64,000 nt of DNA, taken from contig NZ_BMKQ01000001.1 in assembly GCF_014644415.1 (NCBI RefSeq), forward strand, positions 1 through 64,000, written 5' to 3'. Below are positions 4,401 to 57,942 of this stretch, in pieces. Source of the stretch: Marmoricola endophyticus. Lineage in GTDB: Bacteria > Actinomycetota > Actinomycetes > Propionibacteriales > Nocardioidaceae. Under the pieces are notes generated by a model that did no database searches, was not told where the DNA came from, and was given only the letters and a program-made list of their open reading frames with translations. A program made the position numbers and the translations under genes. Numbering within the stretch: position 1 is the first letter of the stretch; every line of letters begins with the position of its first letter.

Positions 4401-4432
4401 CGGTCGGGCGAGGGCTGGGTAGGTTGCCGCCC

Positions 4433-5557
4433 ATGGTGGCGCTGCGTGACGTGCTGGAGCGGATGGAGGGCTGGTACCCCGCCCGCTGGGCCGAGGACTG
4501 GGACGCCGTCGGGCTGGTCTGCGGCGACCCGGAGGCCGACGTACGACGGGTGCTGCTCGCCGTCGACCCGGTCCTCGCGGTCGCCGACGAGGCGGTGGCG
4601 AGCGGCGCCGACCTGGTGATCACCCACCACCCGCTCTTCCTGCGCGGGACGCACTCCGTGGCGGCGACGACGCCGAAGGGGAAGGTCGTGCACCGGCTGC
4701 TGACGGCTGGGTGCGGGCTGCTGGCCGCCCACACCAACGCCGACTCCCCGGCCGACGGTGTGTCGGAGTCCCTCGCGCTCGCCCTCGGGCTGACCGGGAT
4801 CGAGCCGCTGCAGCCGGACGTGACCGACCCCGTGGACAAGGTCGTGGCCTTCGTCCCGGCGACCCACGCGGAAGCCGTCCGGCAGGCGCTGGCCGCGGCG
4901 GGAGCGGGACGGATCGGCGACTACGCCGACGCGTCCTGGTCCTCGTCCGGTGAGGGACGGTTCCGGCCGCTGGACGGCGCGTCGCCGGCCGTGGGCGAGG
5001 TCGGTCGTGCCGAGGTGGTCGACGAGGTGCGCGTCGAGGTCGTCTGCCCGCCTGCGCTGACCGACGCGGTGGTGCGCGCGATGCGGGAGGCGCACCCGTA
5101 CGAGGAGCCGGCGTACGACGTCGTCCGGCTGCAGCCCGACGACGAGCCCGACCGCGGGTCGGGCCGGATCGGGACGCTGCCGCAGGCGGAGTCGCTGCGG
5201 GCCTTCGCCGAGCGGGTCGACCGGGCACTCCCGACCACCGCGCACGGGGTCCGGGTCGCCGGCGACCCGGACCGGGAGGTACGCCGGGTCGCGCTGTGCG
5301 GCGGAGCGGGGGACTTCCTGCTGGACACGGCGCGGGCACGGGGGGCCGACGTCTACCTCACCTCGGACCTGCGCCACCACCCGGCCAGTGAGCACGGCGA
5401 GCACGAGGACGCGCCCGCACTCGTCGACGTCGCCCACTGGGCGGCCGAGTGGACCTGGCTGCCGGTGCTCCGCGACAAGCTCGCCGTCGCGCTGGGCGAT
5501 AGCGTGGCGGTCTCGGTCAGTACGACCCCCAGCGACCCGTGGACCTTCCGGGTCTGA
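4433..5557 (+). CDS. Nif3-like dinuclear metal centre protein (DUF34/YqfO type)
   Basis: 374 residues. The N-terminal Nif3 half contains metal-ligand motifs LVITHHPLFLRG (~residues 61-72) and AAHTNADS; the C-terminal half returns with YLTSDLRHHPASEHGE and LVDVAHWAAEW. The middle (~130-230) is the YqfO/CutA-like insertion with AMREAHPYEEPAYDV. Nif3/DUF34 proteins form toroidal hexamers with two metals per subunit; their biochemical role is unsettled. ATG 4433 is preceded by TAGGTT at 4420-4425 with a 7-nt gap and no Shine-Dalgarno, so the mRNA is probably leaderless. The zinc-ribbon protein and phosphatase follow, the order I recall for Rv2230c-Rv2229c-Rv2228c in mycobacteria. Confidence 0.93.
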   Translation: MVALRDVLERMEGWYPARWAEDWDAVGLVCGDPEADVRRVLLAVDPVLAVADEAVASGADLVITHHPLFLRGTHSVAATTPKGKVVHRLLTAGCGLLAAHTNADSPADGVSESLALALGLTGIEPLQPDVTDPVDKVVAFVPATHAEAVRQALAAAGAGRIGDYADASWSSSGEGRFRPLDGASPAVGEVGRAEVVDEVRVEVVCPPALTDAVVRAMREAHPYEEPAYDVVRLQPDDEPDRGSGRIGTLPQAESLRAFAERVDRALPTTAHGVRVAGDPDREVRRVALCGGAGDFLLDTARARGADVYLTSDLRHHPASEHGEHEDAPALVDVAHWAAEWTWLPVLRDKLAVALGDSVAVSVSTTPSDPWTFRV

Positions 5558-5577
5558 GACCACCAGAGGAGCATCCC

Positions 5578-6333
5578 CTGAAAGCCGATCCCGCCGCCCA
5601 GCTCCGCCTGCTCGACCTGCAGGAGCTCGACACCCGCGCCGACACGCTGAGCCACCGGCTGCGCACCCTGCCCGAGATCGCGGAGCAGGCCGAGGCGGAG
5701 GCCGAGTACCGCACGCTGTTCGACGCCCAGCGCGACCTCGCGATCGCCGTGGACGACCTGACTGCGGAGCAGAAGCGCGCCGACCGCGACGTCGAGCAGG
5801 TCAAGGCGCGTCGCGAGCGCGATCAGGGTCGGATGGATGCCGGGCAGGTCACCAACCCCAAGGACCTCGAGCGGATGACCGGCGAGCTGGAGTCGCTGCA
5901 GCGGCGCATCGCCACCCTCGAGGACGAGGAGCTGGAGGTGATGGAGCGGCTCGAGGAGACGCAGGGCAAGCTCGACGACGTGAGGCGGCACCTGGACGCG
6001 GCCAAGGACCGGGCCGGGTCGGCCGCAGCGGCGCGCCAGGAGAAGAGCACCGCGCTCGAGGGCGAGCTGCGCGGGGTGGCCGGCGAGCGGGAGCAGGTGG
6101 TGCCCGACGTACCGGCCGACCTGCTCGCGCTGTACGAGAAGCTGCGCGCCTCCAAGGGCGGCACCGGAGCGGCGCTGCTGCGGCGCAAGGAGTGCGGCGG
6201 GTGCCGGCTCACGCTCAACCAGGCCGACCTCGCCGCCATCGTCAAGGCACCCGAGGACGACGTCGTCCGCTGCGAGGAGTGCGGCCGGATCCTCGTCCGC
6301 ACCGCCGAGTCGGGCCTGCCGAGCCCGATCTGA
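5578..6333 (+). CDS. C4-type zinc-ribbon / coiled-coil protein (DUF164 family)
   Basis: 251 residues: a long Glu/Arg/Lys-rich antiparallel coiled coil (~residues 10-170) followed by a zinc ribbon with CGGC (ECGGCRLTL) and CEEC (RCEECGRIL). The family is universal in actinobacteria and of unknown molecular function; a nucleic-acid-binding role is often assumed. The start is unusual. AGAGGAG (5565-5571) is ideally placed for CTG at 5578 (CTGAAAGCCGAT), giving the conserved (M)KADPAAQL beginning. The only upstream in-frame alternative, GTG 5539, lies inside the Nif3 gene. I therefore call a CTG start. Nif3 ends 20 nt upstream and the phosphatase overlaps the stop by one base, so the three genes form an operon. 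Confidence 0.88.
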   Translation: MKADPAAQLRLLDLQELDTRADTLSHRLRTLPEIAEQAEAEAEYRTLFDAQRDLAIAVDDLTAEQKRADRDVEQVKARRERDQGRMDAGQVTNPKDLERMTGELESLQRRIATLEDEELEVMERLEETQGKLDDVRRHLDAAKDRAGSAAAARQEKSTALEGELRGVAGEREQVVPDVPADLLALYEKLRASKGGTGAALLRRKECGGCRLTLNQADLAAIVKAPEDDVVRCEECGRILVRTAESGLPSPI

Positions 6334-6965
6334 TGCCACCCTCTCGTGGCTGGGGGGTCGGCGCCGAGCCGACCAGGCTGGTCCTCGTCCGGCACGGCGT
6401 CACCGCGCACACCGCGGACAAGCGGTTCTCCGGAGGGCTGAGCGGCGTGAACCCGGGGTTGACCGACGAGGGGCGGGCGCAGGTGGCCTCGGCGGCGACC
6501 CTGCTCGACGGGTCCGTCGACGCCCTCGTCACCTCCCCGGTGCGCCGCACCGTCGAGTCCGCCGCGATCCTCTCCGAGCGGCTGGGCCTGGACGCGGTCG
6601 AGGAGCCCGGCCTGGCCGAGACCGACTTCGGCGGCTGGGAGGGGCTGACGTTCGGTGAGGTCCGTGCGGGTCACCCCGAGCAGCTCGACGCCTGGCTGGG
6701 GTCGTTGGACGAGCCCGCGGGCGGCACGGGGGAGTCCTTCCGCGTGGTGCAGCACCGCGTGCTCGCGGCACGGGACCGGCTGCTGGCGTCGTACGCCGGG
6801 AGGACGGTGGTCGCCGTCTCCCACGTGACCCCCATCAAGATCCTCGTCGCGGACGCGGTGGGCGCGCCGCTGGAGGCGGTCTACCGGATGGAGCTGGCGC
6901 CGGCCGCGGTCAGCGAAATCGCCTACTACCCCGAGCCGTCGCTGCGGGCCTTCAACCGGACCTGA
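6333..6965 (+). CDS. Histidine phosphatase superfamily protein (no RNase H domain)
   Basis: 210 residues with the phosphohistidine core LVLVRHGVTAHT near residue 20, LVTSPVRRTVESA, ETDFGGWEGLTF and the second His in VVAVSHVTPIK. These enzymes remove phosphate from small molecules through a phospho-His intermediate. ATG 6333 overlaps the preceding TGA (TGATG). In many actinobacteria the protein at this locus (Rv2228c type) is a bifunctional RNase H/acid phosphatase. Here only ~18 residues precede the phosphatase domain, so the RNase HI half is missing. The substrate is unknown; alpha-ribazole phosphatase (CobC-like) activity is one option. Confidence 0.9.
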   Translation: MPPSRGWGVGAEPTRLVLVRHGVTAHTADKRFSGGLSGVNPGLTDEGRAQVASAATLLDGSVDALVTSPVRRTVESAAILSERLGLDAVEEPGLAETDFGGWEGLTFGEVRAGHPEQLDAWLGSLDEPAGGTGESFRVVQHRVLAARDRLLASYAGRTVVAVSHVTPIKILVADAVGAPLEAVYRMELAPAAVSEIAYYPEPSLRAFNRT

Positions 6966-6974
6966 CCTCAGACT

Positions 6975-6991
6975 AGTACGGCTGTGCTACT
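6975..6991. promoter_or_regulatory. Possible TetR autoregulatory half-sites AGTA-n9-TACT
   Basis: AGTA (6975-6978) and TACT (6988-6991) are inverted half-sites; the right one overlaps the -10 TACTTT (6988-6993) of the tetR gene. Position fits autorepression but the symmetry is short. Confidence 0.25.
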
Positions 6992-6999
6992 TTGAGGAC

Positions 7000-7623
7000 G
7001 TGGTTCGACGCATCAATGGCGACGCCCGGCGTCGTGAGCTCGCCGAGGCGGTGTGGCGGCTCGTACGCCGAGACGGGCTCGCGGCCGCCTCGGTGCGGGC
7101 AGTGGCCGCCGAGAGCGGGCTGTCGGCCGGGTCGGTCCGCCACTTCTTCGGCACCCAGAGCGAGCTGATCGCCTTCGCGATGCGCGAGCTGATCGACGCG
7201 GTGCGGGTCCGGGTGGCGGAGGCGGCACAGGAGGAGGACCCGGTCCGGCGCTCCACCGCGGTGCTCGTCGAGCTCCTCCCACTGACCGAGGCCAGCCACG
7301 CCGAAGCGTCGGCCCACCTGCAGCTCGCCACCCAGTCGCGCTTCGACCCCGCGCTGACCGACCTCGCCGACGAGAGCTTCGCGGGGATCCGGCGAGTGTG
7401 CCGCGCGGCGCTGGACTGGCTCGACGAGGCCGGCGAGGTCCGCGACGACGTCGACCTCGACGTCGCCACGACGGCACTGTGCGCCCTGGTCGACGGGCTC
7501 GCGTTCGAGCTCGTCCTCGCGCCACGGCTGCTCACCGCCGACCGGGCCCGCGAGGCCCTGCGGGACCACCTCTCGTCGCTGTCCGACCCCACCGTCTCGT
7601 CGGAGCAGAGGAGCTCGTCGTGA
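7000..7623 (+). CDS. TetR-family transcriptional regulator
   Basis: 207 residues. The N-terminal helix-turn-helix covers ~residues 10-55 (RRELAEAVWRLVRRDGLAA, VRAVAAESGLSAGSVRHFFG), followed by the alpha-helical ligand/dimer domain with FASTA-like conservation to BetI-type regulators (LVDGLAFELVL near the C-terminus). GTG 7000 follows TACTTT (6988-6993) by six bases, a leaderless pattern. It overlaps the next gene by GTGA, so it is probably co-transcribed with the membrane protein it may control. Ligand unknown. Confidence 0.9.
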   Translation: MVRRINGDARRRELAEAVWRLVRRDGLAAASVRAVAAESGLSAGSVRHFFGTQSELIAFAMRELIDAVRVRVAEAAQEEDPVRRSTAVLVELLPLTEASHAEASAHLQLATQSRFDPALTDLADESFAGIRRVCRAALDWLDEAGEVRDDVDLDVATTALCALVDGLAFELVLAPRLLTADRAREALRDHLSSLSDPTVSSEQRSSS

Positions 7624-8183
7624 TCGTCGCCATCGCCGCCGCCGAGGTCGCCTTCTGGGTCGTCCTCGGTGCCGGGCTGCTGAGCCGTTACGTCCTGCGT
7701 CGCCCCGGCCTCAGCCGCGTGCTGCTGCTGTGCGTGCCTCTGGTCGACGTGCTGCTGCTGGCGTTCGTCGTGATCGACATCGCCGCCGGCGCGCCGCCCT
7801 CGCAGGGCCACGCCCTGGCCGCGATCTACCTCGGCGTCACGGTGATGTTCGGGCACTCGATGGTGGCCTGGGCGGACGTGCGCTTCCGGCACCGGTTCGC
7901 CGGCGGGCCGGCGCCGGTCAAGCCGGCCAAGGGCTCGCGCGACGCGGTGCGCGCGCTGTGGGTCGAGTGGTTCCGGGTGGTCGGCGCGGTGGCGATCGCC
8001 GCCGTGCTGGTGCTCGGCATGATCGCCGTGCGCGGGGTCGGCGTCCCGGACGGTCTCGACGCGGCATCGAAGGACCCGTACTGGGGCTCGCTCACACTGA
8101 TGGCCGTGGTGACCGCGATCTGGTTCCTGGCCGGGCCGGCGTTCGCCGGCCGTGGCCGGGCCGACGCGCTCACACCTCGGTGA
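7620..8183 (+). CDS. Four-TM integral membrane protein, unknown function
   Basis: 187 residues with four predicted membrane helices: ~3-20, ~30-52, a re-entrant or TM segment around 62-80 and two C-terminal helices around 120-140 and 160-178. The motif GHSMVAWADVRFRHRFAGGP between helices is typical of an actinobacterial family usually annotated only as membrane protein. GTG 7620 overlaps the TetR stop (GTGA) and AGAGGAG precedes it at about 7608-7614. The gene is probably a target or partner of the TetR regulator. Its 3' end overlaps the converging yaaA by 14 bp. Confidence 0.8.
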   Translation: MIVAIAAAEVAFWVVLGAGLLSRYVLRRPGLSRVLLLCVPLVDVLLLAFVVIDIAAGAPPSQGHALAAIYLGVTVMFGHSMVAWADVRFRHRFAGGPAPVKPAKGSRDAVRALWVEWFRVVGAVAIAAVLVLGMIAVRGVGVPDGLDAASKDPYWGSLTLMAVVTAIWFLAGPAFAGRGRADALTPR

Positions 8184-8943
8184 CGACCACGTCGAGTCGC
8201 GTGCCGGACTTCTCCGGCGCCACCTCGACGCGCCAGCCCAGCCGGGTCAGGTGCTCGGCGAGGGCAGCGGGGGTGCGGGGCGCGGTGCCGTCGACCAGCA
8301 TCGCGCGCACGATCCTGCCCTTCGTCGCCTTGTTGAAGTGGCTGACCACCGAGCGCTTCCCACCGGCCTCGTGGAGCACCCGCACGGTCGCGGTACGGGG
8401 CGCGAGCTCGGGCCCCGGCCGCCAGAACGCCTGGTAGGTCCCCGAGCGCATGTCGACCAGCAGGCCGTCGCCGACCATCCGCTCGACGACCGGGCCGAGG
8501 TGGGTACGCCAGTGGCCGGCGACGCTGCCGAGGCCGGGGAGGGTGACGTCGCCGGAGAGGCGGTACGCCGGGATCCGCTCCGCCGGGCGCAGGAGCCCGA
8601 AGACCGAGGACGTGACGGCCAGCCACCGGGTCGCACGCCGTCGCGCGGCCTCGTCCAGCGACGCCAGGTCGAGGGCGTCGTACAGGACGCCCGCGTAGAC
8701 GTGGTCGGCGCGCGCGGTCGGCGCGTCGTACACCTCGGCGTTGCGCTGCACCTCTCCGGCGAGGCCTGCCGACAGCTTGAGCGCGCGCACCGCGTCCTCG
8801 GGGTCCGTGCGGCAGACCTCGACCAGGCTGTCGAGCACCTGACGGCGTGGAGCGGACAGGTCGTCGGGCCAGGATGCCGGGTCCAGCCGGGCGCCCCGTC
8901 GCGGTGCGTTCTTGCCCTCCGAGGGCGGCAGCAGGATCAGCAC
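8170..8943 (-). CDS. yaaA: YaaA family peroxide-stress protein
   Basis: 257 residues of the YaaA/UPF0246 (DUF328) family: MLILLPPSEGKNAP at the N-terminus, VYDALDL, SSVFGLLRP, VDMRSGTYQAFW and SHFNKATKGRIVR towards the C-terminus are all typical. E. coli YaaA lowers intracellular free iron and protects DNA during peroxide stress; similar action is inferred here. GTG 8943 has TAACCT on the minus strand at 8956-8951, seven bases away, with no ribosome site, so the transcript is probably leaderless. Converges with the upstream membrane protein. Confidence 0.92.
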   Translation of the reverse strand: MLILLPPSEGKNAPRRGARLDPASWPDDLSAPRRQVLDSLVEVCRTDPEDAVRALKLSAGLAGEVQRNAEVYDAPTARADHVYAGVLYDALDLASLDEAARRRATRWLAVTSSVFGLLRPAERIPAYRLSGDVTLPGLGSVAGHWRTHLGPVVERMVGDGLLVDMRSGTYQAFWRPGPELAPRTATVRVLHEAGGKRSVVSHFNKATKGRIVRAMLVDGTAPRTPAALAEHLTRLGWRVEVAPEKSGTRLDVVVTEV

Positions 8944-8967
8944 GCCGGACAGGTTAGGGCGGGGCGA

Positions 8968-9471: not shown

Positions 9472-9562
9472 ACAGGCACGCTAGGTGCCGGCTCCGACAG
9501 TGGTGGAGACCTGGGCGTCCGCGCTCGCGGGTCGTTGCCCGACGCGGGCTAGGTTCGAGGGT

Positions 9563-12661: not shown

Positions 12662-12669
12662 CAGGGGGT

Positions 12670-13071: not shown

Positions 13072-13078
13072 AGCGCTC

Positions 13079-16402: not shown

Positions 16403-16513
16403 GCCATCGAACCTAGGGGGTGGCTCCGAACCACCTCCATGCCGGTCACCACTCGACGCTCCCGCGTGTCCGCGGATGCGGGCGTGCGCCGCGCGAGGAC
16501 ATACGTTGTCCCG

Positions 16514-21863: not shown

Positions 21864-23473
21864 GTCGCCTCACCTCCTCGGCTCGCGTCCGCGGCTTGCT
21901 GCTGCTGCTGCTCCTGCTGGGCCTCGGCCGGCGCCTCGCCGGTCTCGTCGACCAGCGCGGGACCGGGCTCGGGCGGCGCGGGGGAGACGTGGTCGGCATG
22001 TCCCTGGAGCAGGGCCTGCGCCTGCTGCTGGGAGCGCCCCGGCCCGGCGAGCACCCAGGTGTCCTTCGACCCGCCGCCGCGCGAGGAGTTCACGATCAGC
22101 TCGCCCTCACCGAGCGCGACGCGGGTCAGACCGCCGGGCAGCACCCAGACGCGGTTGCCGTCGTTGACCGCGAACGGCCGCAGGTCGACGTGCCGTGGTC
22201 GCAGCCGGCCGTCGATGTACGTCGGCACCGTCGAGAGCTGGACGACGGGCTGCGCGATCCACGACCGCGGGTCGGCCAGCACCTTGGTGCGCAGCTCGTC
22301 CAGCTCGGCCTTCGTCGCGCGGGGACCGATGACGATGCCCTTGCCGCCCGAGCCGTCGACCGGCTTGAGCACGAGCTCGTCGAGGCGGTCCATGACCTCC
22401 TCGCGGTGGTCGGCGTCGCCCATCCGCCAGGTGTCGACGTTGCGGATCATCGGTTCCTCGTCGAGGTAGTAGCGCACCAGGTCGGGCATGTAGGTGTAGA
22501 CGAGCTTGTCGTCGGCGACGCCGTTGCCGACCGCGTTGGCGATCGTGACGTTGCCGGCGCGCGCGGCGTTGATCAGGCCCGAGCAGCCGAGCATCGAGTC
22601 GCCGCGGAAGTGCAGCGGGTCGAGGAAGTCGTCGTCGACGCGCCGGTAGATCACGTGCACCGGCTCCAGGCCGTTGGTGGTCCGCATCATCACCCGGCCG
22701 CGCTGGCACTCCAGGTCGCGGCCCTCGACGAGCTCGACGCCCATCGTCCGGGCGAGCAGCGCGTGCTCGAAGTACGCGCCGTTGTAGACCCCCGGGGTCA
22801 GTACGACGACGTTCGGGTCGGTGACGCCGGCCGGTGCGGCGGCGCGCAGCGCGGTGAGCAGCTTCTGGGGGTAGCCGGCGACGGGACGGATCCGGTGGTC
22901 GCCGACCGTCTCGGGGATCGCGGCGGAGATGGCGCGGCGGTTGGTCATGACGTACGAGACGCCGGAGGGCACTCGTACGTTGTCCTCGAGCACCCGGAAC
23001 TCGCCCTCGTTGTCGCGGATCAGGTCGATACCGCTCACGTGGACGCGCACACCGTTGGCGGGCTCGATGCCGGCCGAGGCGCGGTGGTAGTGCGAGGAGG
23101 TGGTGATCACCCGGCGCGGGATGACGCCGTCCTCGAAGACCTTGCCGGCGCCGTAGACGTCGTCGAGGAACTTCTCCAGGACCTGCACCCGCTGCTGGAC
23201 GCCGGCCTCGACCCGCGCCCAGTGCTCCATCTCGATGACCCGGGGGAGGATGTCGAGCGGGAAGGCCCGCTCCTCGCCGCCGATGTCGAAGGTCACGCCC
23301 TGGTCGAGGTAGCTGGTGGCCAGGGAGTCCACACGTGAGCGGATCTCGCCCTGGCCCATCTCGGCGAGCGTCGCCTGCAGGCGGGAGTACGACGAGCGCA
23401 GCTCGGTGCCGGCGTACATCTCGTCGAACGCCTCGCCCATGGCGTCGGTGTAGCCCTCGAAAAGCTGATCCAT
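21857..23473 (-). CDS. Circularly permuted type 2 ATP-grasp protein
   Basis: 538 residues. Signature segments: FDEMYAGTELRSSYSRL, VIPRRVITTSSHY, GIDLIRDNEGEFRVLEDN with ATP/Mg ligands, TPGVYNGAYFEHALLAR, ELVLKPVDGSGGKGIVIGP (glycine-rich ATP loop) and IAQPVVQLSTVPTY. Expected chemistry is ATP-driven amide (peptide) ligation through an acyl phosphate. The C-terminal ~50 residues are low-complexity, Pro/Glu-rich with a short poly-Gln run, and are not part of the fold. ATG 23473 follows TAGGGT on the minus strand (23486-23481) by seven bases, a leaderless start. First gene of the three-gene module. Confidence 0.92.
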   Translation of the reverse strand: MDQLFEGYTDAMGEAFDEMYAGTELRSSYSRLQATLAEMGQGEIRSRVDSLATSYLDQGVTFDIGGEERAFPLDILPRVIEMEHWARVEAGVQQRVQVLEKFLDDVYGAGKVFEDGVIPRRVITTSSHYHRASAGIEPANGVRVHVSGIDLIRDNEGEFRVLEDNVRVPSGVSYVMTNRRAISAAIPETVGDHRIRPVAGYPQKLLTALRAAAPAGVTDPNVVVLTPGVYNGAYFEHALLARTMGVELVEGRDLECQRGRVMMRTTNGLEPVHVIYRRVDDDFLDPLHFRGDSMLGCSGLINAARAGNVTIANAVGNGVADDKLVYTYMPDLVRYYLDEEPMIRNVDTWRMGDADHREEVMDRLDELVLKPVDGSGGKGIVIGPRATKAELDELRTKVLADPRSWIAQPVVQLSTVPTYIDGRLRPRHVDLRPFAVNDGNRVWVLPGGLTRVALGEGELIVNSSRGGGSKDTWVLAGPGRSQQQAQALLQGHADHVSPAPPEPGPALVDETGEAPAEAQQEQQQQQAADASRGGEATC

Positions 23474-23539
23474 GCTCTCGACCCTAGCGAGAGCGGCCGA
23501 CCCTGCCGAGGGGGCCCGCGGGCGCGATAGTTTGGCCGG

Positions 23540-23731
23540 ATGAGCGATCAGTACTGGTTCAATCTCAAGACCCACGAGGTCGAGGGGGACGACGGGGCTC
23601 GCTCCGCCGACCGGCTGGGGCCCTACGACTCCGCGGAGGAGGCCGCCCGCGCCCTCGACAAGGTCGCCGAGCGCAACGAGGCCTGGGACGACGACCCGAG
23701 CTGGAACGACGAGGCCTCGTCGGAGGGCTGA
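23540..23731 (+). CDS. Small SPOR-like protein
   Basis: 63 residues: SDQYWFNLKTHEVEGDD, then DRLGPYDSAEEAARALDKV and a Glu/Asp-rich end. This is a common actinobacterial small protein often labelled SPOR-domain or unknown. The sequence suggests a single compact alpha/beta unit. ATG 23540 is six bases after TAGTTT (23528-23533), so probably leaderless. Divergent from the ATP-grasp gene with a 66-bp spacer. Confidence 0.82.
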   Translation: MSDQYWFNLKTHEVEGDDGARSADRLGPYDSAEEAARALDKVAERNEAWDDDPSWNDEASSEG

Positions 23732-25607: not shown

Positions 25608-25660
25608 GGACGAAGCCTAGGAACGACGAGGCTCCGACGGGGTCGTTCGCCGGAATCCGG

Positions 25661-26512: not shown

Positions 26513-26540
26513 GCGAGCACGGTAGCGCCGGTGGTCGCGG

Positions 26541-30401: not shown

Positions 30402-31835
30402 GTGAGCGACCTGCTGGACCGCCTCACCGAGATCGTCGGCGCCGCCGCGGTCGACACCGACCCGGCACACCTGCGCGAGATGAGCCAGGACAGGTTCAAG
30501 AAGTACCAGTCCGTGCACGGCATCTACGACGGCCCGCAGCCCGCGGCCATCGTGCGCGCCGGCTCCACCGAGCAGGTCTCCGCCGTTCTCGCGCTGGCCG
30601 ACGAGCGGCGCGTGCCGGTGGTGCCGCGCACGGGCGGCACGGGCACGGAGGGGGGCCTGGAGGTCGTCGTCGAGGGCAGCATCGTGCTCGACGGCTCCGC
30701 GATGGACCGGGTGCTCGCGATCGACGCCGTGGACATGCAGGCGACCGTCCAGTGCGGCGTACGCCTCGCGGACCTGGAGGTCGCGCTCAACGCGGAGGGC
30801 CTGACCACCGGCCACTCCCCGCAGTCGCAGCCGCTGGCGATGATGGGCGGACTCGTGGCGACCCGGTCGATCGGTCAGCTCTCGACGCTGTACGGCGGCA
30901 TCGAGGACATGGTCACCGGCCTGGAGGCCGTGCTGCCCGGCGGCGCGGTGGTGCGGGTGCGCGACGTCCCGCGGCGCGCGGCGGGCCCGGACGTCCGGCA
31001 CGTCGTGATCGGCAACGAGGGCGGGCTGTGCTTCGTCACCGAGGTGACGGTGCAGGTCTACCCGCTGCCCGAGACGCGCCGGTTCCTCGGCTACTTCGTC
31101 GACGACCTCGCCGCCGGGGCCGACGTCCTGCGGCAGGTGGTCACGGCGGGCTTCCGGCCCTCGGTGTGCCGGGTGTACGACGCCGGCGACGCCGCCCAGC
31201 ACTTCGCCGGGTGGCCCGGCTGGAACGACCGCAGCGTGCTCGTCGTCGTCGCCGAGGGGCCGCGGGGGATCGTGGCGGCCACCGCCGCCGAGGTGCAGCG
31301 GCTGGCCCTGGAGGCGGGCGCCGAGAGCGTCGACCCCGCGCTGGTCGAGCAGTGGTTCGGCGCGCTGAACTGGGGCCCGGAGAAGATCGAGGCCGAGAAG
31401 GAGGCGATGCGCACCCGGGCCCACCTCGGCTACACGACCGAGGTGTCCGTGGCGTGGTCGCGCGTCGCCGAGCTGCACGGGTCCGTGCTGCGCCGGGTGC
31501 GTGAGGAGTTCCCGCACGTGGCCGACCTGACGATGCTCGGCGCGCACTCCTCGCACAGCTACCAGACCGGCACGAACCTCTACTTCGTCTACGACTACGA
31601 CATCAGGTGCGAGCCGCGCGAGGAGATCGTGCAGTACCACCAGCCGCTCAACGCGATCATCGTCGAGGAGGCGCTGCGGGTCGGCGGTTCGATGGTGCAC
31701 CACCACGGGGTGGGCAAGTACCGCACGCCGTGGGTCGAGGCCGAGCACGGCTCCTCCTGGCGCCTGCTGGCCGGGCTCAAGGAGGTCTTCGACCCCCACG
31801 GCGTGATGAACCCCGGCACCGTCTGGCCGCGGTGA
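30402..31835 (+). CDS. FAD-linked oxidase, alkyl-DHAP-synthase/glycolate-oxidase-like
   Basis: 477 residues from GTG 30402, which has AGGAG (30392-30396) well placed; an ATG at 30375 overlapping the SDR stop (ATGA) would add nine residues. PCMH-type FAD domain: VVPRTGGTGTEGGLE, GLTTGHSPQSQPLAMMGGLVATRSIGQLSTLYGGIEDM is visible in pieces around residues 130-180, IGNEGGLCFVTEV; the C-terminal cap has MVHHHGVGKYR. The HHHG motif matches the active site of alkyldihydroxyacetonephosphate synthases, but glycolate/D-2-hydroxyacid oxidases are also similar. Context (SDR before, FGGY kinase overlapping after) favours a catabolic oxidation rather than ether-lipid synthesis. Confidence 0.85.
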   Translation: MSDLLDRLTEIVGAAAVDTDPAHLREMSQDRFKKYQSVHGIYDGPQPAAIVRAGSTEQVSAVLALADERRVPVVPRTGGTGTEGGLEVVVEGSIVLDGSAMDRVLAIDAVDMQATVQCGVRLADLEVALNAEGLTTGHSPQSQPLAMMGGLVATRSIGQLSTLYGGIEDMVTGLEAVLPGGAVVRVRDVPRRAAGPDVRHVVIGNEGGLCFVTEVTVQVYPLPETRRFLGYFVDDLAAGADVLRQVVTAGFRPSVCRVYDAGDAAQHFAGWPGWNDRSVLVVVAEGPRGIVAATAAEVQRLALEAGAESVDPALVEQWFGALNWGPEKIEAEKEAMRTRAHLGYTTEVSVAWSRVAELHGSVLRRVREEFPHVADLTMLGAHSSHSYQTGTNLYFVYDYDIRCEPREEIVQYHQPLNAIIVEEALRVGGSMVHHHGVGKYRTPWVEAEHGSSWRLLAGLKEVFDPHGVMNPGTVWPR

Positions 31836-33268
31836 CCCGGCGCGGCCCGCTGCTGCTCGGGATCGACCTGGGCACGCAGAGCGCGAAGGTCGTCGTCCAC
31901 GACAGCACCGGCGGCGTCGTCGCGCAGGGACGGCGGGCGCTGCGACCCCTCGCCCGCCCCGTGCCCGGGGTCGCCGAGCACCCCGACGACGACCTGTGGG
32001 ACGCGACGGCGGCGGCCTGCCGGGAGGCGGTGTCCGGTCTCGGGGACGCGCGCGGCGACATCGCCGCGGTCGGCCTGTGCGGCGTCCGCTTCTGTCGGGC
32101 GCTGGTCGGGTCGGACGGCCGGCTGAGCGCCCCGGTGATGAGCTGGATGGACGAGCGCGTCTCGCGGCCGCACGACCCGGTGCGCGAGGCGGCGACGGTC
32201 TGCGCGGCGTCGGGCCACCTCACCCGCCGGCTCACCGGCGAGACCCGGGACGCGGCGGGCTCGTGCCGCGGCCAGTGGCCGGTCGACACCGACCGGTGGG
32301 ACTGGTCGCGCGACGACGAGGTCGTGGCGTCGTACGGCCTGCGCCGCGCGCAGCTGCCCACGCTCGTCGCGCCGGGCGCGGTGCTCGGCACCGTCACCAC
32401 CGAGGCGGCGGGGGCCACGGGCCTGCCGGCGGGCGTGCCGGTCGTGGCGACCTCGAACGACAAGGCCGTCGAGGCGCTCGGCGCCGGGCTGCGCGAGCCG
32501 GAGGACGTCCTGCTCTCGCTGGGCACGTACGTCGCGGCGATGGTCACCGGCGAGCGCGACCGGCCGGAGCTGACCGCGTCCTGGACGAACTTCGGGTCCG
32601 AGCCCGGCCGCTACCTCCACGAGAGCCACGGCGTACGGCAGGGGATGGGCACCGTCACGTGGCTGAGCGCCCTCGTCGGGCCCTCGCTCGGCGCCGGAGA
32701 CGGGTCCTGGGAGGAGCGGCTGGAGGTCGAGGCCGCGCGGGTCCCGCCGGGCGCCGAAGGCCTGCTGACGGTGCCGGACTGGCTCGCGCCGCCCGACGAG
32801 CCGCACCGACGGGGAGCGTTCGTCGGCCTCGACGCCCGCCACGGCGCGGGCCACCTGCACCGCTCGCTCCTCGAGGGGCTGGCGATGACGATGGGCGACC
32901 ACGTCGCGGCCATGGCGCGCGAGCTGGAGCGTCCGCTGCGTCGTGTGCTGCTCACCGGGGGTGGTGCGCGCTCGGCGGTGATGCGGCAGGTGGTCGCCGA
33001 CGTCACGGGGCTCCCCGTCCACGTCGGTGACGCCACGGACAGCGCCGCCGGCCGGGGTGCGGCCATCTGCGCCGGCGTCGGCACCGGCGTCTTCGCGGGG
33101 TTCGCCGAGGCGGTCGCGGCCATGGTGCCGAGAACGGCGCCGACGAGCCCCGACCCGGCGCGGCACGAGACGTACCAGCGGCTCGGCGGCGCCCTGCGCG
33201 GGCTGCGCGCGGCGCTGGGTCCGTCGCTGCGCGAGGCGCAGGGCGCGCTGGGCGAGGTCAGGCCCTAG
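31832..33268 (+). CDS. FGGY-family carbohydrate kinase
   Basis: 478 residues with the two actin-like ATPase lobes: LLGIDLGTQSAKVVV (~residues 6-20), VGLCGVRFCR, LSAPVMSWMDERV, SNDKAVEALGAG in the hinge and the adenosine motif VLLTGGGARSAVMRQVVADV near the C-terminus. FGGY kinases phosphorylate sugars, polyols or keto-sugars; which one is open. GTG 31832 overlaps the FAD enzyme stop (GTGA). The stop TAG at 33266 is also the first half of the -10 hexamer of glnA2. Confidence 0.9.
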   Translation: MTRRGPLLLGIDLGTQSAKVVVHDSTGGVVAQGRRALRPLARPVPGVAEHPDDDLWDATAAACREAVSGLGDARGDIAAVGLCGVRFCRALVGSDGRLSAPVMSWMDERVSRPHDPVREAATVCAASGHLTRRLTGETRDAAGSCRGQWPVDTDRWDWSRDDEVVASYGLRRAQLPTLVAPGAVLGTVTTEAAGATGLPAGVPVVATSNDKAVEALGAGLREPEDVLLSLGTYVAAMVTGERDRPELTASWTNFGSEPGRYLHESHGVRQGMGTVTWLSALVGPSLGAGDGSWEERLEVEAARVPPGAEGLLTVPDWLAPPDEPHRRGAFVGLDARHGAGHLHRSLLEGLAMTMGDHVAAMARELERPLRRVLLTGGGARSAVMRQVVADVTGLPVHVGDATDSAAGRGAAICAGVGTGVFAGFAEAVAAMVPRTAPTSPDPARHETYQRLGGALRGLRAALGPSLREAQGALGEVRP

Positions 33269-33277
33269 GCTCGCGGC

Positions 33278-34615: not shown

Positions 34616-34657
34616 GGCTGCGCATCACCGTCGCTCCGTCTCGCCTAACCTGACCCG

Positions 34658-37669: not shown

Positions 37670-37724
37670 GGCGGCCGCAGACCGCCCGGCAGTGGCCGCC
37701 CCGCGCGGGCGTACGCTCCGGCGA

Positions 37725-40707: not shown

Positions 40708-40717
40708 ATCCTATGAT
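40708..40717. promoter_or_regulatory. Overlapping divergent -10 elements
   Basis: The decamer ATCCTATGAT contains minus-strand TAGGAT (40713-40708) and plus-strand TATGAT (40712-40717). Each lies exactly seven bases from a GTG start (40700 on minus, 40725 on plus). The two start codons are separated by only 24 bp. Confidence 0.6.
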
Positions 40718-43468: not shown

Positions 43469-43478
43469 GCGTACGACT

Positions 43479-43497
43479 ATAGGTAAGCCTTACCTGT
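43479..43497 (-). promoter_or_regulatory. DtxR/IdeR-type iron box
   Basis: ATAGGTAAGCCTTACCTGT: a perfect 7-1-7 inverted repeat AGGTAAG-C-CTTACCT at 43481-43495. It matches 16 of 19 positions of the IdeR/DmdR consensus TTAGGTWAGSCTWACCTAA when W positions are allowed. It overlaps the -10 (43476-43481) of the SIP gene, so Fe2+-loaded repressor would block transcription. Confidence 0.85.
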
Positions 43498-45087: not shown

Positions 45088-45195
45088 GCTCGCAGCGTCC
45101 CGGGCGAGGTGAACGTGCCGGCCACGACGACGTGACGCCGCGGTGACGGGCAAAGGACGAGCGTGCGCGCCCGGTCGGCGCCTACGGTCGGTGTC

Positions 45196-46233: not shown

Positions 46234-46266
46234 GGCGCGCGTGCGTCACCGATAGATTGGCCCGCC

Positions 46267-48651: not shown

Positions 48652-48654
48652 GAG

Positions 48655-50221: not shown

Positions 50222-50243
50222 GTCTGGTGCGGTACGACCGCGG

Positions 50244-50630: not shown

Positions 50631-50676
50631 GGGGTCGAACCTATCGGTGGGATGCGCAGGTGCGTGGGTGGTGGGT

Positions 50677-50815: not shown

Positions 50816-50863
50816 CGGCGGGTGGCTGGGGCTCAAGCGGCCCTCGCCGTTGCTCTCCCGCTC

Positions 50864-50928
50864 GCCGAGTCGTCGCACTTGCCAACGGCCTCGCTCCGCT
50901 CGGCGGAGCGCAACTGCGGCGACTCGGC
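50864..50928. terminator. Long hairpin after DUF4191
   Basis: GCCGAGTCGTCGCACTTGC (50864-50882) and GCAACTGCGGCGACTCGGC (50910-50928) pair at 17 of 19 positions. It starts 17 bases beyond the DUF4191 stop, so it is well placed to end the lipA-DUF4191 transcript. No U-tract, so it could equally be a different palindromic repeat. Confidence 0.55.
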
Positions 50929-50945
50929 TCAGAAATATGGCGGGC

Positions 50946-51665: not shown

Positions 51666-51680
51666 GGGGTGGAGTATCCC

Positions 51681-52655: not shown

Positions 52656-52698
52656 ACCGACCAGCGTACGCCGCGGCGGTTGCGCTCGTGGGCCCCGC

Positions 52699-54096
52699 TC
52701 AGCCGGCGGGAGGAGCCTCCAGCGTCAGCGTGACGGTGCTTCCCTGGGCCACCCTCGTGCTGCTCTGGTCCGGCGTCTGCGCAGTGACCACCGCTGTGTC
52801 GGTCGCGGTCACCCCGTCGGGGTCCACCGCCACGACGAGGCCCTTGCCCTGTAGCGCTGCGAGGGCGGCGGCGTACGACAGGCCGACGACGTCCGGCACC
52901 GGCCCCAACGACACGGTCACGGTGACGGTCGTACCGCGGTTCGCTCGCGCACCGGCCGCGACACTCTGTGTGATGACCTGTCCGATGGTCGTGGGGTCGT
53001 AGACGTCGGTGCGCGCCCCGGGGTAACCGGCTGCCTTCAGCTTCTCCAGAGCCTTCTCCGCCTCCAGCGCCGTGACGTCCGGCACCCGAGGCGTCTTCCA
53101 CACCGGCGGCTTCGGCGTGCCGGGCGCGGGGTTGCCGGGTGTCGGGTGGTTGCCGACGGGCGGCGTGCTGCCCGGCTTGGGCGCGCTCGGACGCTGGGGT
53201 GCCTGCGTGACCGCCCCGGTCGTGCTGGTCCTGGCCTTGGACGTGTGTGTGGGCTTGGCGACCGGCAGCCGGTCGGCGTCGTTGGCGCCGGCCCCGGCGT
53301 ACGACGACCCGGCCGAGCGGAAGTCGAGCAGACCGCTCGACGTCGCGCCGACGGCGTAGGTCGCCGACTGGTCCTTGGCGTAGGCCTGCGCGACGGCCAT
53401 GACGAGGGCGACGTACGACGCGGAGTTGTTGTACGAGCGCACCGCCGCCTTCGTGCCGGCGTCGGTGGCGAGGTCGTCGCCGTTGCCGCACAGGTAGACC
53501 GCCGCGGCGAGGGCCGCGTCGTCGATGTCCTGCGGGTCCCGCTTGCCGTCGCCGTCGCCGTCGACCGCGATGGTCGCCCAGGTGCTGGGCAGGATCTGCA
53601 TCGGACCGACGGCCCGGTCGTGCGTGCTGTCGCCGTCGAGCTGGCCGGCGTCGGTGTCGGCGACCAGCTTCACGCCCTTGCCGTCCAGGGGCACCCCGAC
53701 GATGCCCTTGGCGTTGCGTGCGCTGGTGCGGCCGTGGTCGGACTCGACCTGACCGACCGCGGCGAGGAGGGGCCAGGTCAGGTGGCAGCCGGGAGAGGCC
53801 GAGGCCATCGAGTCGGCGGCACGCTGGTAGGCGGCCAGTGCGGCCGGGGGGATGTCGGTCAACGACGCGGTCCGCAGTGCCTTGTCGCGCAGCCCCGCGC
53901 TGACGGCCTGTCCGCGCGGAGCGGTGCTGGCGGCGCGGTCCGTGCCGACGGTGGCCGGTGCCTGTCGCTCCGAGGTCGCCTGGATGGTTCGCGTGGGGTC
54001 GTCCTGGTTGGCGGAGACGACCGCCGTACCCGTCACAGCGAGCGCGACCGAGGCGACGGCGCCGGTGGTGAAGGTACGGACCGTTCGGGGTGACAT
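52699..54096 (-). CDS. Secreted lytic transglycosylase with two C-terminal PASTA domains
   Basis: 465 residues. Signal peptide ([20 protein letters not shown], ending VVSA). A soluble-lytic-transglycosylase-like domain covers ~residues 85-230: [19 protein letters not shown] with the catalytic Glu, [15 protein letters not shown] and the Asp-rich [21 protein letters not shown] Pro/Thr linker follows, then two PASTA repeats (~330-395 and ~398-465) that bind peptidoglycan stem peptides. Start ATG 54096 has GGGAG four bases upstream; the frame is open to 54159. It cuts glycan strands at the cell surface. It splits lipB from lipA. Confidence 0.88.
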
Positions 54097-54245
54097 GAGG
54101 CTCCCAGGCGGCTTGCATCGGATGGTGGGACGACCGTCCCCGAGGCGGGGCAGCCGCACCCGATGACGTCCGCTGAAGCGTAGGTCACCGAACGGTCCGT
54201 TGGACAGGGATTCCGGCTAAATCGGACCGGTTGTTCGCTCGCTGT

Positions 54246-54953
54246 TCAGGAGCGGGCACCGAGCACCGGCACCCGCGGTCCGCGGCCGGGCTCGGGACGG
54301 GGCTCGTAGTCCGGCGTCGCGTCGTACGACGTCCAGGCCAGCAGCCGCTCCAGGTGACGTCGTACGAGCGGAACGGTCTCGGCCACCGGCACGTCACGAC
54401 CGAGCTCGGCGCTGAGCGACGTCACGCCCGCGTCGGCGATGCCGCAGGGGACGAACCGGTCGTACCAGCCGAGGTCGACGTCGGCGTTGAGCGCGAAGCC
54501 GTGCATGGTCACGCCGCGGCTGACCCGGATCCCGAGCGCGGCAATCTTGCGCTCGGGTCGGCCCTCGCCGGCCCGCAGCCAGACGCCGCTGCGACCCGGG
54601 ACCCGCGCGGTCGTGACGCCGAGGTCGCGGCACACGCCGATCAGCGCCTCCTCGACCCGTCGGACGTAGTCGACGACCTTGACGTGGTCGGGGAGCCGGA
54701 CGATCGGGTAGCCGACCAGCTGGCCGGGCCCGTGGAAGGTGATCTTGCCTCCGCGGTCGACGTCGATGACCTCTGCGCCACCGGTGTCGGTGGGCAGCTC
54801 GGAGGCGTCGGTGCGCTTGCCGCAGGTGTAGACCGGCGGGTGCTCGACGAGCAGCAGCCGGTCGGGGCCGCCGGAGACGACCTCCTCGTGCTCCTCGCGC
54901 TGGCGGTCCCAGGCGGCGCGGTAGTCCAGTATGCCGAGGTCGATCACGTCCAC
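54246..54953 (-). CDS. lipB: Octanoyl-[acyl carrier protein]:protein N-octanoyltransferase
   Basis: 235 residues. LipB transfers octanoate from ACP to E2 Lys. Catalytic pair: Lys in [22 protein letters not shown] and Cys in [31 protein letters not shown] is also present. GTG 54953 lies seven bases from TACTGT on the minus strand (54966-54961), so leaderless. The C-terminus carries a ~20-residue Pro/Arg tail. lipA is 1.6 kb downstream past the transglycosylase. Confidence 0.95.
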
Positions 54954-55017
54954 GACAGCGACAGTACGCCTGTGGATAACGCGTTCGGGCCGGCGCGGTG
55001 GCGGCACAGTGGACGCC

Positions 55018-55551
55018 ATGAGCGAGACCGGGTGGCGGTGGTGGGGGCTGGTGGCCCTCGGCGGCGTCTCGCTGCTGCTCGGGACGTACCTCGTGCTGGC
55101 GGGGCGGACCGACGCCGGAGCGGCCGGCGACTCCCACGGGGCGGCGGTCCGGCCACCCGGCGGGACGGCGCACGACGCGTCGGGTGCGCTGGACGTGCTC
55201 CACCGCTGGGACGCCGCGCGCTCCCGCGCGTGGGCGGCCGGTGACGTCGAGGGGCTGCGGGGCCTCTACGTCGACGACGCGCCGGCGGGCGCCCGCGACG
55301 TGGCGATGCTCCGGGCCTACCTCGGCCGTGGGCTCGTGGTCCGCGGCCTGCGGATGCAGGTGCTGGACGCACGGGTGCGCCACCTCGACCCGGCTGTCGT
55401 ACGCCTCCAGGTGACCGAGCGGCTCGCCGGCGGCGTGGCCGACGACGCCGAGCGGTCCCGGGCGCTGCCCAGGGACTCGACCAGCACGCGCCTCGTCGAG
55501 CTGCGTCGCGCGGCAGGGCGGTGGCGGGTGGCGGCGGTCAGCCAGGCGTGA
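55018..55551 (+). CDS. Secreted/membrane-anchored hypothetical protein
   Basis: 177 residues. N-terminal membrane helix ([22 protein letters not shown]) then Gly/Ala-rich linker and an alpha/beta domain ([48 protein letters not shown]) that looks NTF2/SnoaL-like. Function unknown. Divergent from lipB with a 64-bp spacer. No known homologue family named with confidence. Confidence 0.65.
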
Positions 55552-55569
55552 GGCGGCTCGGGCCTCCGC

Positions 55570-56472
55570 TCATCCGGCAGCGAGGGCGGCCGCGACGGTG
55601 TCCGTGATGTCCGGGTGGGCGAAGGAGTAGCCGCTGTCCAGCAGTGCCGCGGGGACGGCCCGCACCGAGCCGAGCAGCTCCGGGGCGAGGTCGCCGGCCG
55701 CCGGCCGGATCAGGAACGACGGCAGCTTGACCAGCGCCGGCCTGCTGAGCGCCTTGGCCAGCGCCTTCGTGAACTCGTCGTTGGTCGCGGGCTCCGGCAG
55801 GGACAGGTTGACCGGACCGGACACCTCGTCGTGCTCCGCGCAGTGGACGACGGCGCCGACCCAGTCCTCGGTCGAGATGGTCGGGAAGTACTGCTCTCCC
55901 GAACCCAGCGGGCCGCCCAGCCCGGCCTTGAACAGCGGCACCAGCAGGCTCAGCGGTGCGCTGCGCCGGTCGAGCACGGGGGAGGTGCGCAGGTAGACCA
56001 CGCGGGCGCCGCTGCGCTCCGCCGGCTCCGCCGCCTCCTGCCAAACGCGGGAGACGTGGGTGAGCAGGTGGTCGCCGGCCGAGTCGGCCGACTCGTCGAG
56101 CACCTCGTCGCCGCGGTCGCCGTAGTACGAGATGCCGTTGCCGGCGAGGAACACCGGCCGGTCCTCGACCTCGGCGATCGCGCGGGCCAGCGTGCCGGTC
56201 GTCGCGACCCGGCTCTCCTCAAGCTCACGCTTCCACTTCTGCGAGTGGGGGTTGCCGAAGGTCGGCGCACCGGCCAGGTTGACCACGACGTCGGCCGCGG
56301 CCACCAGGCCGGCGTCGAGCCCGGCCCGGTCGGCGTACGGGTCCCACTGCTGCTGGTCAGGCCCGGACGGCTCGCCGCGGACCAGGCGCGTGACCGTGTG
56401 CTCACGTCGTGCCAGCTCCTCCCGCAGGCGCGTGCCGAGGAAGCCGGAGGAGCCCGCGATGAGGAAGTGCAT
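55570..56472 (-). CDS. TIGR01777-family NAD(P)-dependent epimerase
   Basis: 300 residues: [51 protein letters not shown] and [12 protein letters not shown], all typical of the YfcH/SDR39U1 group. Biochemical role unknown in bacteria. Conserved neighbour of lipB (Rv2216). ATG 56472. Divergent from lpdA, 78 bp apart. Confidence 0.9.
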
Positions 56473-56550
56473 GTGCCCACAGTCCCACGGGGCAGGACGG
56501 TGCACGACCCCGTCAGGGAGGTGCCGGTCCGGGGAATAGGCTCAGGTCTC

Positions 56551-57942
56551 GTGAGCCACTTCGATGTCGTCGTCCTCGGTGCGGGCCCCGGTGGGTACGT
56601 CGCCGCCATCCGCGCCTCGCAGCTCGGCAAGTCCGTTGCCGTGATCGAGAAGAAGTACTGGGGCGGCGTCTGCCTCAACGTCGGCTGCATCCCCTCCAAG
56701 GCCCTGCTCCGCAACGCCGAGCTGGCGCACCTGCTCGAGCACGAGAAGGACCTGTTCGGGATCACCGGCGAGGTCTCGATGGAGTACGGCGCCACGCACG
56801 CTCGCAGCCGCAAGGTGTCCAAGGGCATCGTCAACGGCGTCCACTACCTGATGAAGAAGAACAAGATCACCGAGATCGACGGGTGGGGGACCTTCAAGGA
56901 CTCCGCGACGCTCACCGTCGAGCTCAACGACGGTGGCACCGACGAGATCACCTGGGACGACCTGATCATCGCCACCGGCGCGACCACGCGGCTGGTGCCC
57001 GGCACCGAGCTGTCGGAGAACGTCGTGACCTACGAGGAGCAGATCCTCGACGAGACGCTGCCCGGCTCGATCGTGATCGCCGGCTCCGGCGCGATCGGCG
57101 TGGAGTTCGCCTACGTGATGGCCAACTTCGGGGTGCAGGTGACGATCGTCGAGTTCCTCGACCGCATGGTGCCCACCGAGGACGCCGAGGTCTCCAAGGA
57201 GCTGCTCAAGCACTACAAGAGGCTCGGCGTCGACGTCCGGCTGTCCACCAAGGTCGAGAAGATCGAGGACACCGGCTCGAGCGTGAAGGTGACTGTCTCC
57301 AAGGACGGGTCCACCGACGTCATCGAGGCCGACAAGGTGCTCCAGGCGATCGGCTTCGCGCCGCGGCTGGACGGCTACGGCCTGGACAAGTCCGGCGTCG
57401 AGACCACCGAGCGCGGCGCGATCGCCGTCGACGAGCGCGGCCGTACCAACGTCGAGCACGTGTACGCGATCGGCGACGTCACCGGCAAGCTGATGCTGGC
57501 CCACACCGCCGAGGCGATGGGCGTCGTCGCGGCCGAGACGATCGCTGGCGCGGAGACCGTCGAGATCGACTTCGACATGATCCCGCGGGCGACGTACTGC
57601 CAGCCGCAGATCGCCTCCTTCGGCTACTCAGAGGAGCAGGCCAAGGAGAAGGGGTACGACGTCAAGACCGCCAAGTTCCCGTTCTCCGCCAACGGCAAGG
57701 CGGCCGGGCTGGGGGAGACCGCGGGGTTCGTGAAGATCGTCGCCGACGCGACGTACAACGAGATCCTCGGCGCCGCGCTGATCGGCCCGGACGTCACCGA
57801 GCTGCTGCCCGCCCTGACGCTGGCCCAGAAGTGGGACCTCACCGCCGACGAGGTCGCCCGCAACGTCTTCGCCCACCCGACGCTCTCCGAGGCGGTCAAG
57901 GAGGCCGTCGAGGGTCTCGCCGGGCACATGATCAATCTCTGA
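56551..57942 (+). CDS. lpdA: Dihydrolipoamide dehydrogenase
   Basis: 463 residues. FAD site [16 protein letters not shown], redox disulfide [19 protein letters not shown]-site [34 protein letters not shown] and the active-site His-Glu [16 protein letters not shown]. It reoxidises lipoamide on E2 of pyruvate, 2-oxoglutarate or glycine-cleavage complexes. GTG 56551 follows TAGGCT (56537-56542) by eight bases. A second Lpd follows sucB at the right end, so this one may serve a different complex. Confidence 0.96.

Follow-up and report, generated by a model that had tools for sequence, protein, structure and literature searches.

A TANNNT hexamer lying ~12 bp before the start has been described in nearly all Actinobacteria (Zheng 2011, PMC3160421), and transcription starts in mycobacteria favour a purine at +1 and a C at -1 (Cortes 2013, Shell 2015, Martini 2019). 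Bidirectional promoters (Warman 2021, via Middlemiss 2023, PMC10268837) have a reported optimum of 18 bp between the two transcription starts, and distances of 7-25 bp are counted. In B. subtilis gene pairs 10 bp apart, the stop codon overlaps the Shine-Dalgarno (SD) sequence of the next gene (Palleja 2009, PMC2784483). The leaderless pattern of the present genome is the known actinobacterial one (Zheng 2011; Cortes 2013; Shell 2015) and is not new. Judged from the sequence, about a fifth of the genes appear to begin their message exactly on the start codon and, in some tightly spaced pairs, the upstream stop codon seems to serve as one half of the next gene's promoter as well.

The window is a stretch of 64,000 nt from Marmoricola endophyticus (contig NZ_BMKQ01000001.1, positions 1 to 64,000). 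An earlier note had listed 23 starts in it with a -10-like hexamer ending 6-8 nt upstream. All 23 indeed have TANNNT at this distance (6 nt in eight cases, 7 nt in 13, 8 nt in two), each before an in-frame ATG or GTG. They all lie within frames called as genes, making up 23 of the 63 5'-complete genes of the window, a number that is not an unbiased rate because these genes were picked by their motif. A caller using only coding potential, and thus blind to the motif, placed the start at the listed base in 14 of them. For the other nine the frame agrees, the furthest start being 25607, 303 nt upstream of the called one. The hexamers, taken as putative -10 elements, are the following:

4420..4425, plus strand: TAGGTT, 7 nt before ATG 4433 (DUF34/NIF3 protein)
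6988..6993, plus strand: TACTTT, 6 nt before GTG 7000 (TetR regulator)
8951..8956, minus strand: TAACCT, 7 nt before GTG 8943 (YaaA family)
9478..9483, minus strand: TAGCGT, 6 nt before ATG 9471 (PNPOx-like)
9550..9555, plus strand: TAGGTT, 7 nt before ATG 9563 (aldo/keto reductase)
16410..16415, minus strand: TAGGTT, 7 nt before ATG 16402 (protein without Pfam match)
16502..16507, plus strand: TACGTT, 6 nt before GTG 16514 (glycosyltransferase 2)
23481..23486, minus strand: TAGGGT, 7 nt before ATG 23473 (circularly permuted ATP-grasp); a -10 is kept in 5/5 orthologs compared
23528..23533, plus strand: TAGTTT, 6 nt before ATG 23540 (63-aa protein, encoded divergently from map in relatives)
25614..25619, minus strand: TAGGCT, 6 nt before GTG 25607; start uncertain, coding potential beginning 303 nt downstream
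26519..26524, minus strand: TACCGT, 6 nt before ATG 26512 (ketopantoate hydroxymethyltransferase); a -10 is kept in 5/10 orthologs
33266..33271, plus strand: TAGGCT, 6 nt before ATG 33278 (glutamine synthetase)
34646..34651, plus strand: TAACCT, 6 nt before ATG 34658 (GlnE)
37712..37717, plus strand: TACGCT, 7 nt before GTG 37725 (PLD-like)
40708..40713, minus strand: TAGGAT, 7 nt before GTG 40700; 40712-40713 common to the opposite -10
40712..40717, plus strand: TATGAT, 7 nt before GTG 40725 (YrhK-like); its TA overlaps the opposite -10
43476..43481, minus strand: TATAGT, 7 nt before ATG 43468 (SIP domain)
45183..45188, plus strand: TACGGT, 7 nt before GTG 45196 (GNAT acetyltransferase)
46253..46258, plus strand: TAGATT, 8 nt before GTG 46267 (DDAH-like)
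50638..50643, minus strand: TAGGTT, 7 nt before GTG 50630 (RDD family, slightly below the Pfam cut-off)
52663..52668, minus strand: TACGCT, 7 nt before GTG 52655 (radical SAM, lipoyl synthase-like)
54961..54966, minus strand: TACTGT, 7 nt before GTG 54953 (lipoyl protein ligase A/B family)
56537..56542, plus strand: TAGGCT, 8 nt before GTG 56551 (pyridine nucleotide-disulphide oxidoreductase, domain from residue 4 of this start)

Gene starts in all statistics were called from coding potential. With starts called in this motif-blind way, the motif is strongly enriched: TANNNT precedes 123 of 525 genes against 9.1 expected and, in 400 kb of fresh sequence from this genome, 79 of 382 against 6.1. 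Over 364 kb (the window and 15 other stretches), it stands at a gap of 6, 7 and 8 nt in 17, 26 and 6 of 334 called genes, respectively, and at any other gap between 0 and 40 nt in at most four. Under a loose rule, the window is richer in motif genes (21/63) than the other 15 stretches (49/271). The motif is restricted to ATG and GTG, which together give 255 matches at gaps 6-8 in 964 kb of the genome, where 43.8 are expected from gaps 12-40; no peak is seen there for TTG (11 vs 7.9 expected) or CTG (22 vs 36.8). Neither a -35 element (column information, TTGACA-like matches) nor an extended -10 (TGN) is enriched in the 202 motif genes of these 964 kb. In relatives, the motif is kept in 35 of 46 ortholog instances, compared to 5 of 38 for the other window genes. 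Counting this genome, it is found before thymidylate synthase in 24/24 genomes and before an amidohydrolase in 20/22, while map has it in 19/19 loci of the genus and in 25/30 loci across the class.

These hexamers are very likely -10 elements of the housekeeping sigma factor, with transcripts that start at the first base of the ATG or GTG, and such short promoters could be fused with neighbouring coding signals. The ribosome would then begin at the 5'-terminal ATG or GTG without an SD sequence. That transcription from the start codon predicts this distance had been proposed in the earlier note, and the proposal is supported by the 6-8 nt spacing, the codon restriction, the conservation, a pyrimidine at -1 and SD matches at background level. 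In 964 kb, SD-like matches of at least 4 nt precede 51 of 202 motif genes, which is at the background of internal in-frame ATG/GTG codons (195/867), compared to 415 of 705 other genes.

It is unlikely, though conceivable, that the genes are not strictly leaderless and that the RNA begins 1-3 nt upstream of the start codon. Gaps of 7 and 8 nt are frequent among motif genes and, at gap 8, just 17 of 26 cases (sum of five samples) have a pyrimidine at -2, which is no excess, so that a purine start at -2 would often be possible. The base at -1, however, is a pyrimidine in 137 of 145 cases at gap 7-8, compared to 641 of 1107 other starts (in fresh samples, 60/68 vs 320/573), and the mycobacterial preference for a purine at +1 and a C at -1 also argues for a start on the codon itself. 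A narrower proposal, that a purine at -1 is barred only at gap 7-8, initially looked strong (pyrimidine in 71/121 at gap 6) and faded in fresh stretches, with 42/48 at gap 7-8 vs 24/31 at gap 6 in this genome (p = 0.35) and 60/68 vs 31/43 once class samples are included (p = 0.04). The pyrimidine bias at -1 is used here only to argue for transcription from the codon itself.

The earlier note had also assigned the motif to the first genes of units only. This is too strong and holds only in part: tandem pairs 9-11 nt apart after TAG or TAA carry the motif throughout the genus samples. In 964 kb of this genome, motif genes make up 101 of 314 divergent genes, 68 of 262 tandem genes at more than 30 nt, 14 of 63 at 11-30 nt, 17 of 254 at 10 nt or less and 2 of the 14 genes lying at the end of a sequence.

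The glutamine synthetase gene illustrates such a tight pair: positions 33266-33268 of its putative -10 double as the TAG stop of the FGGY kinase gene (31832-33268). Another fused junction lies between a chloride channel gene and thymidylate synthase (L224). In tandem pairs 9-11 nt apart from the genus samples, the upstream TAG/TAA is the start of the next putative -10 (TARNNT) in 26 of 26 pairs, and none of the 14 TGA-ended pairs has a fused -10. An upstream TAG/TAA occurs in 33 of 53 pairs at this distance, compared to 179 of 1273 at other distances. The hexamer has T at position 6 in 30 of these 33, against 24/154 for TAG/TAA pairs at 12 nt or more and 1/20 for TGA pairs at 9-11 nt; within this genome, the T is absent from every TAG/TAA pair at 0-8 or 13-30 nt. 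Outside the genus, the T occurs in just 5 of the 10 TAG/TAA pairs at 9-11 nt, too few pairs for a general rule, with a 50-kb Rhodococcus plasmid piece contributing no gene calls; of the five pairs that lack it, at least one has an SD-like sequence (TAAGGAG, G013). The genes that in different genomes end at the same TAG of the glutamine synthetase -10 have no significant similarity to one another (best E 1.1), and the genes upstream of glnE in G003 and in G010/G009 are likewise unrelated. Of three fused genes traced in relatives, one keeps the motif at just 4 of 16 loci.

We think it probable that TAGNNT is used both as stop and as promoter, that the promoter is older, that frames repeatedly fall into it and that units are thereby tightly packed. 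A leaderless promoter consists of just TANNNT and 6-8 nt, with no detectable -35, and can thus be fused with neighbouring coding signals. The three bases TAG would serve twice, terminating the upstream protein and starting the next gene's promoter. As the older part, the promoter would offer a ready-made stop in a GC-rich genome, where stop codons are few. Neighbouring reading frames would fall into it again and again, packing independent transcription units closely enough for distance rules to call them operons.

It is quite improbable that the upstream TAG at 9-11 nt belongs instead to an SD motif (TAGGAGG), as in the B. subtilis pairs. Such an adaptation is reported by Palleja 2009, and a few pairs look SD-like (TAAGGAG in G013 and L071, TGAGG in 7 of the 14 genus TGA pairs). 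The 26 genus TAG/TAA pairs, however, read TAGGCT, TAGACT, TAGCGT, TAGGTT, TAGCCT, TAATGT and the like, all TARNNT and none with GGAGG, and the motif genes have SD-like matches at background. Just as improbably, the TAG/TAA hexamers would be mere upstream stop codons with T at position 6 by chance: the hexamer does begin on the upstream stop in 17 of 202 motif genes (964 kb), but 181 are divergent (101) or have it past that stop (80), and at 9-11 nt the T is nearly confined to TAG/TAA pairs.

If the dual use of stop and -10 is true, gene pairs 9-11 nt apart, which operon prediction by distance puts together, can be transcribed as separate units, and stop-codon choice would be tied to promoters rather than to translation. 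No description of a stop codon inside a -10 was found among the papers listed by a literature search, with subscription journals mostly outside its reach. Leaderless genes as such are to be expected in this group, but they give better gene starts for a genus resembling Nocardioides; no paper on its leaderless genes was found by title.

In a few divergent pairs, 23-25 bp apart, opposite putative -10s have one TA in common, as in the window pair 40700/40725 and the map pair in 14 of 19 relatives. Twelve overlapping opposite -10 pairs were found in 4 of 8 samples, all at the shared-TA offset; one of them (L162) opposes an 18-aa ORF and may be due to chance. Control gaps gave three shared-TA offsets, none of them in genus samples. 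This genome has four such pairs in its first 564 kb and none in the next 400 kb, and they are thus rare. The 97-aa protein of pair 40700/40725 has no homolog in a search of 23 other genomes of the genus.

Compared to the known leaderless (TA-led) actinobacterial genes, TANNNT ~12 bp upstream, the use of ATG/GTG only and the lack of an SD and a -35 are the same, and the share of genes is likewise between about a fifth and a quarter. Nothing differs in kind; it is another genus with a similar share. The shared-TA pairs resemble the bidirectional promoters of Warman and Middlemiss in that opposite putative -10 elements overlap and have bases in common. They differ by a distance of 24-26 bp between the two start codons, with a single TA shared, so that some lie just past the 25 bp limit, and both sides would begin on the start codon. 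The commonest spacing of those promoters, 18 bp (TANNNTA), was seen in no leaderless pair of the 8 samples; one TANNNTA-type pair occurred in fresh sequence, in a 49% GC stretch from another family. As in the pairs of Palleja 2009, the choice of stop codon would be adapted to a signal that the following gene has at a short, fixed spacing, but this signal would here be the -10 of a leaderless gene and not a ribosome binding site.

All 23 starts picked out in the earlier note are preceded by a -10-like hexamer, TANNNT. Each is an ATG or GTG, and the gap between hexamer and start codon is 6 (eight genes), 7 (13 genes) or 8 nt (two genes). Genes were also called on coding potential alone, blind to the motif, in the window and 15 further stretches (364 kb, 334 genes with a complete 5' end). 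The hexamer precedes 17 of these called starts at gap 6, 26 at gap 7 and 6 at gap 8, and no other gap between 0 and 40 has more than four. A looser rule, accepting an in-frame ATG or GTG anywhere between 90 nt before and 120 nt after the called start, gives 70 of the 334 genes against a mean of 4.9 at control gaps from 12, and 123 of 525 (9.1 expected) with ten stretches added. The enrichment over control gaps is likewise found in a fresh 400 kb of the same genome, where the motif lies exactly at the called start of 64/382 genes, or 79/382 under the loose rule (6.1 expected). These counts above chance, in first and fresh sequence alike, indicate that roughly a fifth of the genes carry the motif. 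Matches at gaps 6-8 in 964 kb scanned without gene calls number 114 before ATG (11.2 expected), 141 before GTG (32.6), 11 before TTG (7.9) and 22 before CTG (36.8). Across the class Actinomycetes, 18 high-GC stretches (20 fetched, those at 49% and 60% GC left out) yield 32 motif genes in 302 (6.6 expected). The window (~73% GC, from a genome of 3.66 Mb) is richer in motif genes (21/63) than the 15 other stretches sampled from the genome (49/271). The Nonomuraea sequence NZ_LT559118.1, filed among plasmids, looks like a chromosome by its size (11.85 Mb).

The pattern is real and strong, and reading these genes as probably leaderless was correct. The statement that most of them lack a Shine-Dalgarno (SD) sequence is borne out: SD-like matches of at least 4 nt occur in 51/202 motif genes, the background level of internal in-frame ATG/GTG codons (195/867), and in 415/705 other genes. 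Neither a -35 element nor the TGN of an extended -10 is visible as a signal upstream of the motif genes. In five samples, drawn from this genus and from two further families of its order, the base at -1 is a pyrimidine in 137/145 genes at gap 7-8, 71/121 at gap 6 and 641/1107 other starts; the contrast is smaller in fresh stretches of the own genome (42/48 at gap 7-8, 24/31 at gap 6). This pyrimidine is taken solely as a sign of the predicted RNA start on the start codon, in line with the mycobacterial preference for RNA starts on a purine preceded by C at -1 (Cortes 2013, PMC3898074; Shell 2015, PMC4633059; Martini 2019, PMC6448022).

As first written, the finding is known in kind. TANNNT has been described some 12 bp ahead of the start; of 953 bacterial genomes, 207 have leaderless genes, and so do nearly all Actinobacteria, where they exceed 20% of genes (Zheng 2011, PMC3160421). 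The leaderless pattern has been mapped in M. tuberculosis (Cortes 2013). A literature search on Nocardioides and leaderless genes returned no paper on the subject, judged by title.

Conservation was followed in stretches from ten genomes, nine of the same genus and one from another family, representing 9 of the 23 genes; the motif was scored as kept if it lay no more than 15 codons from the aligned start. It is kept in 35/46 ortholog instances, and in 5/38 for other window genes. Thymidylate synthase has it in 24/24 genomes and an amidohydrolase in 20/22 (own genome counted in both), map in 19/19 loci of the genus by our reading and in 25/30 across the class (30 cut from a search of 60 genomes), and CDP-alcohol phosphatidyltransferase in just 4/16 loci. 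Glutamine synthetase carries it in 9/9 same-genus genomes. By eye, 17 named Nocardioidaceae loci divide into 10 with TANNNT, 5 with CATAGT or GATAGT at the equal position and 2 with neither; none of six Kribbella-type loci has the motif, and GAGG- or GGAG-like stretches stand there. The gene (loci L020-L042, L103-L121) looks leaderless in Nocardioides-type genomes and is preceded by an SD-like leader in those of Kribbella type, and a switch of initiation mode appears to have occurred inside the order. Judged by GlnE, the window is closest, among named organisms, to Nocardioides and Marmoricola (70% identity in the best segment). Two contigs labelled as Bifidobacterium breve MAG (L043, L057) encode a GlnE with 55-56% identity to that of the window, roughly the level found for Streptomyces, and are possibly misbinned.

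At the divergent starts 40700/40725, both -10s lie within ATCCTATGAT, overlapping by their TA. The first 564 kb of the genome hold four divergent motif pairs, 23-24 bp apart, with this offset and none with another -10 overlap; the following 400 kb yielded no shared-TA pair, and the class sample gave one such offset, in the 49% GC stretch. Same-genus stretches add seven, six of which join map to a 61-65 aa protein homologous to the product of 23540. Among the 19 map ortholog loci, 14 are laid out this way, with spacer letters that differ around the core; the match at L180 is not the small gene. Relatives of the 63-aa protein gene 23540 (L163-L181) are divergent partners of map across 23-25 bp. 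In the window that gene lies opposite an ATP-grasp gene (23473-23540, 66 bp between), and no close ortholog of this map turned up in the own genome (best match 42%). Overlapping -10s have been described at bidirectional promoters, where 18 bp is the optimum (Middlemiss 2023, PMC10268837). Divergent promoters in close juxtaposition are also on record, as is one divergent pair that is leaderless on both sides (Cortes 2013).

By arrangement, the motif is found in 101/314 divergent genes, 68/262 tandem genes more than 30 nt apart, 14/63 at 11-30 nt and 2/14 at sequence ends. The claim that operon-internal genes are unaffected was too strict, as 17/254 tandem genes within 10 nt carry the motif. These are not noise, since 15 of the 17 hexamers open with the upstream stop codon; such hexamers total 17, two of them at 11 nt. 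With motif-blind starts in six samples, the stop is TAG or TAA in 33/53 tandem pairs 9-11 nt apart and 179/1273 at other distances (p = 6e-15), and T occupies hexamer position 6 in 30 of those 33, against 24/154 TAG/TAA pairs at 12 nt or more (p = 1e-16) and 1/20 TGA pairs at 9-11 nt; both p-values are too small, because related genomes have some pairs in common. The own genome has this T in 16/16 TAG/TAA pairs at 9-11 nt, at 16 different genes, in 2/3 at 12 nt and in none at 0-8 or 13-30 nt. Three genus samples give 26/26 (19 different downstream genes by our count) versus 0/14 TGA pairs, seven of which read TGAGG, an SD-like junction. Outside the genus the fusion occurs in 5/10 pairs, a sample too small to generalise.

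The predicted promoter seems to be the older part, with neighbouring frames ending in it repeatedly, as the motif is wider spread than the stop and unrelated upstream genes end on the same TAG. At thymidylate synthase and at the amidohydrolase, an abutting stop was seen only in the own genome. The same TAG ends the FGGY kinase upstream of glutamine synthetase in the window and, in genomes G010, G009 and G002, an upstream gene that shows no significant similarity to the kinase (best E 1.1). Upstream of glnE, the gene of G003 resembles neither that of G010 nor that of G009, which are alike; by eye, without a domain search, the former looks STAS-like and the latter membrane-protein-like. One fusion pair has TAA in G012 and TAG in G007, the T unchanged. 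In G025, TGA closes the upstream VanW gene 18 nt ahead of the amidohydrolase start, and the own copy of VanW aligns to it no further than residue 282 of 286, a hint that the own frame was extended. The fusion may have been selected for tighter packing, or the -10 may simply act as a passive sink that catches frames whose stop was lost.

A stop codon inside a -10 was found nowhere in the literature searched, most subscription journals lying outside its coverage, and this fusion, with its predicted promoter activity, may be new. Its nearest analogue is the overlap of a stop codon with the next gene's Shine-Dalgarno sequence (Palleja 2009, PMC2784483); here, the element overlapped is the -10.
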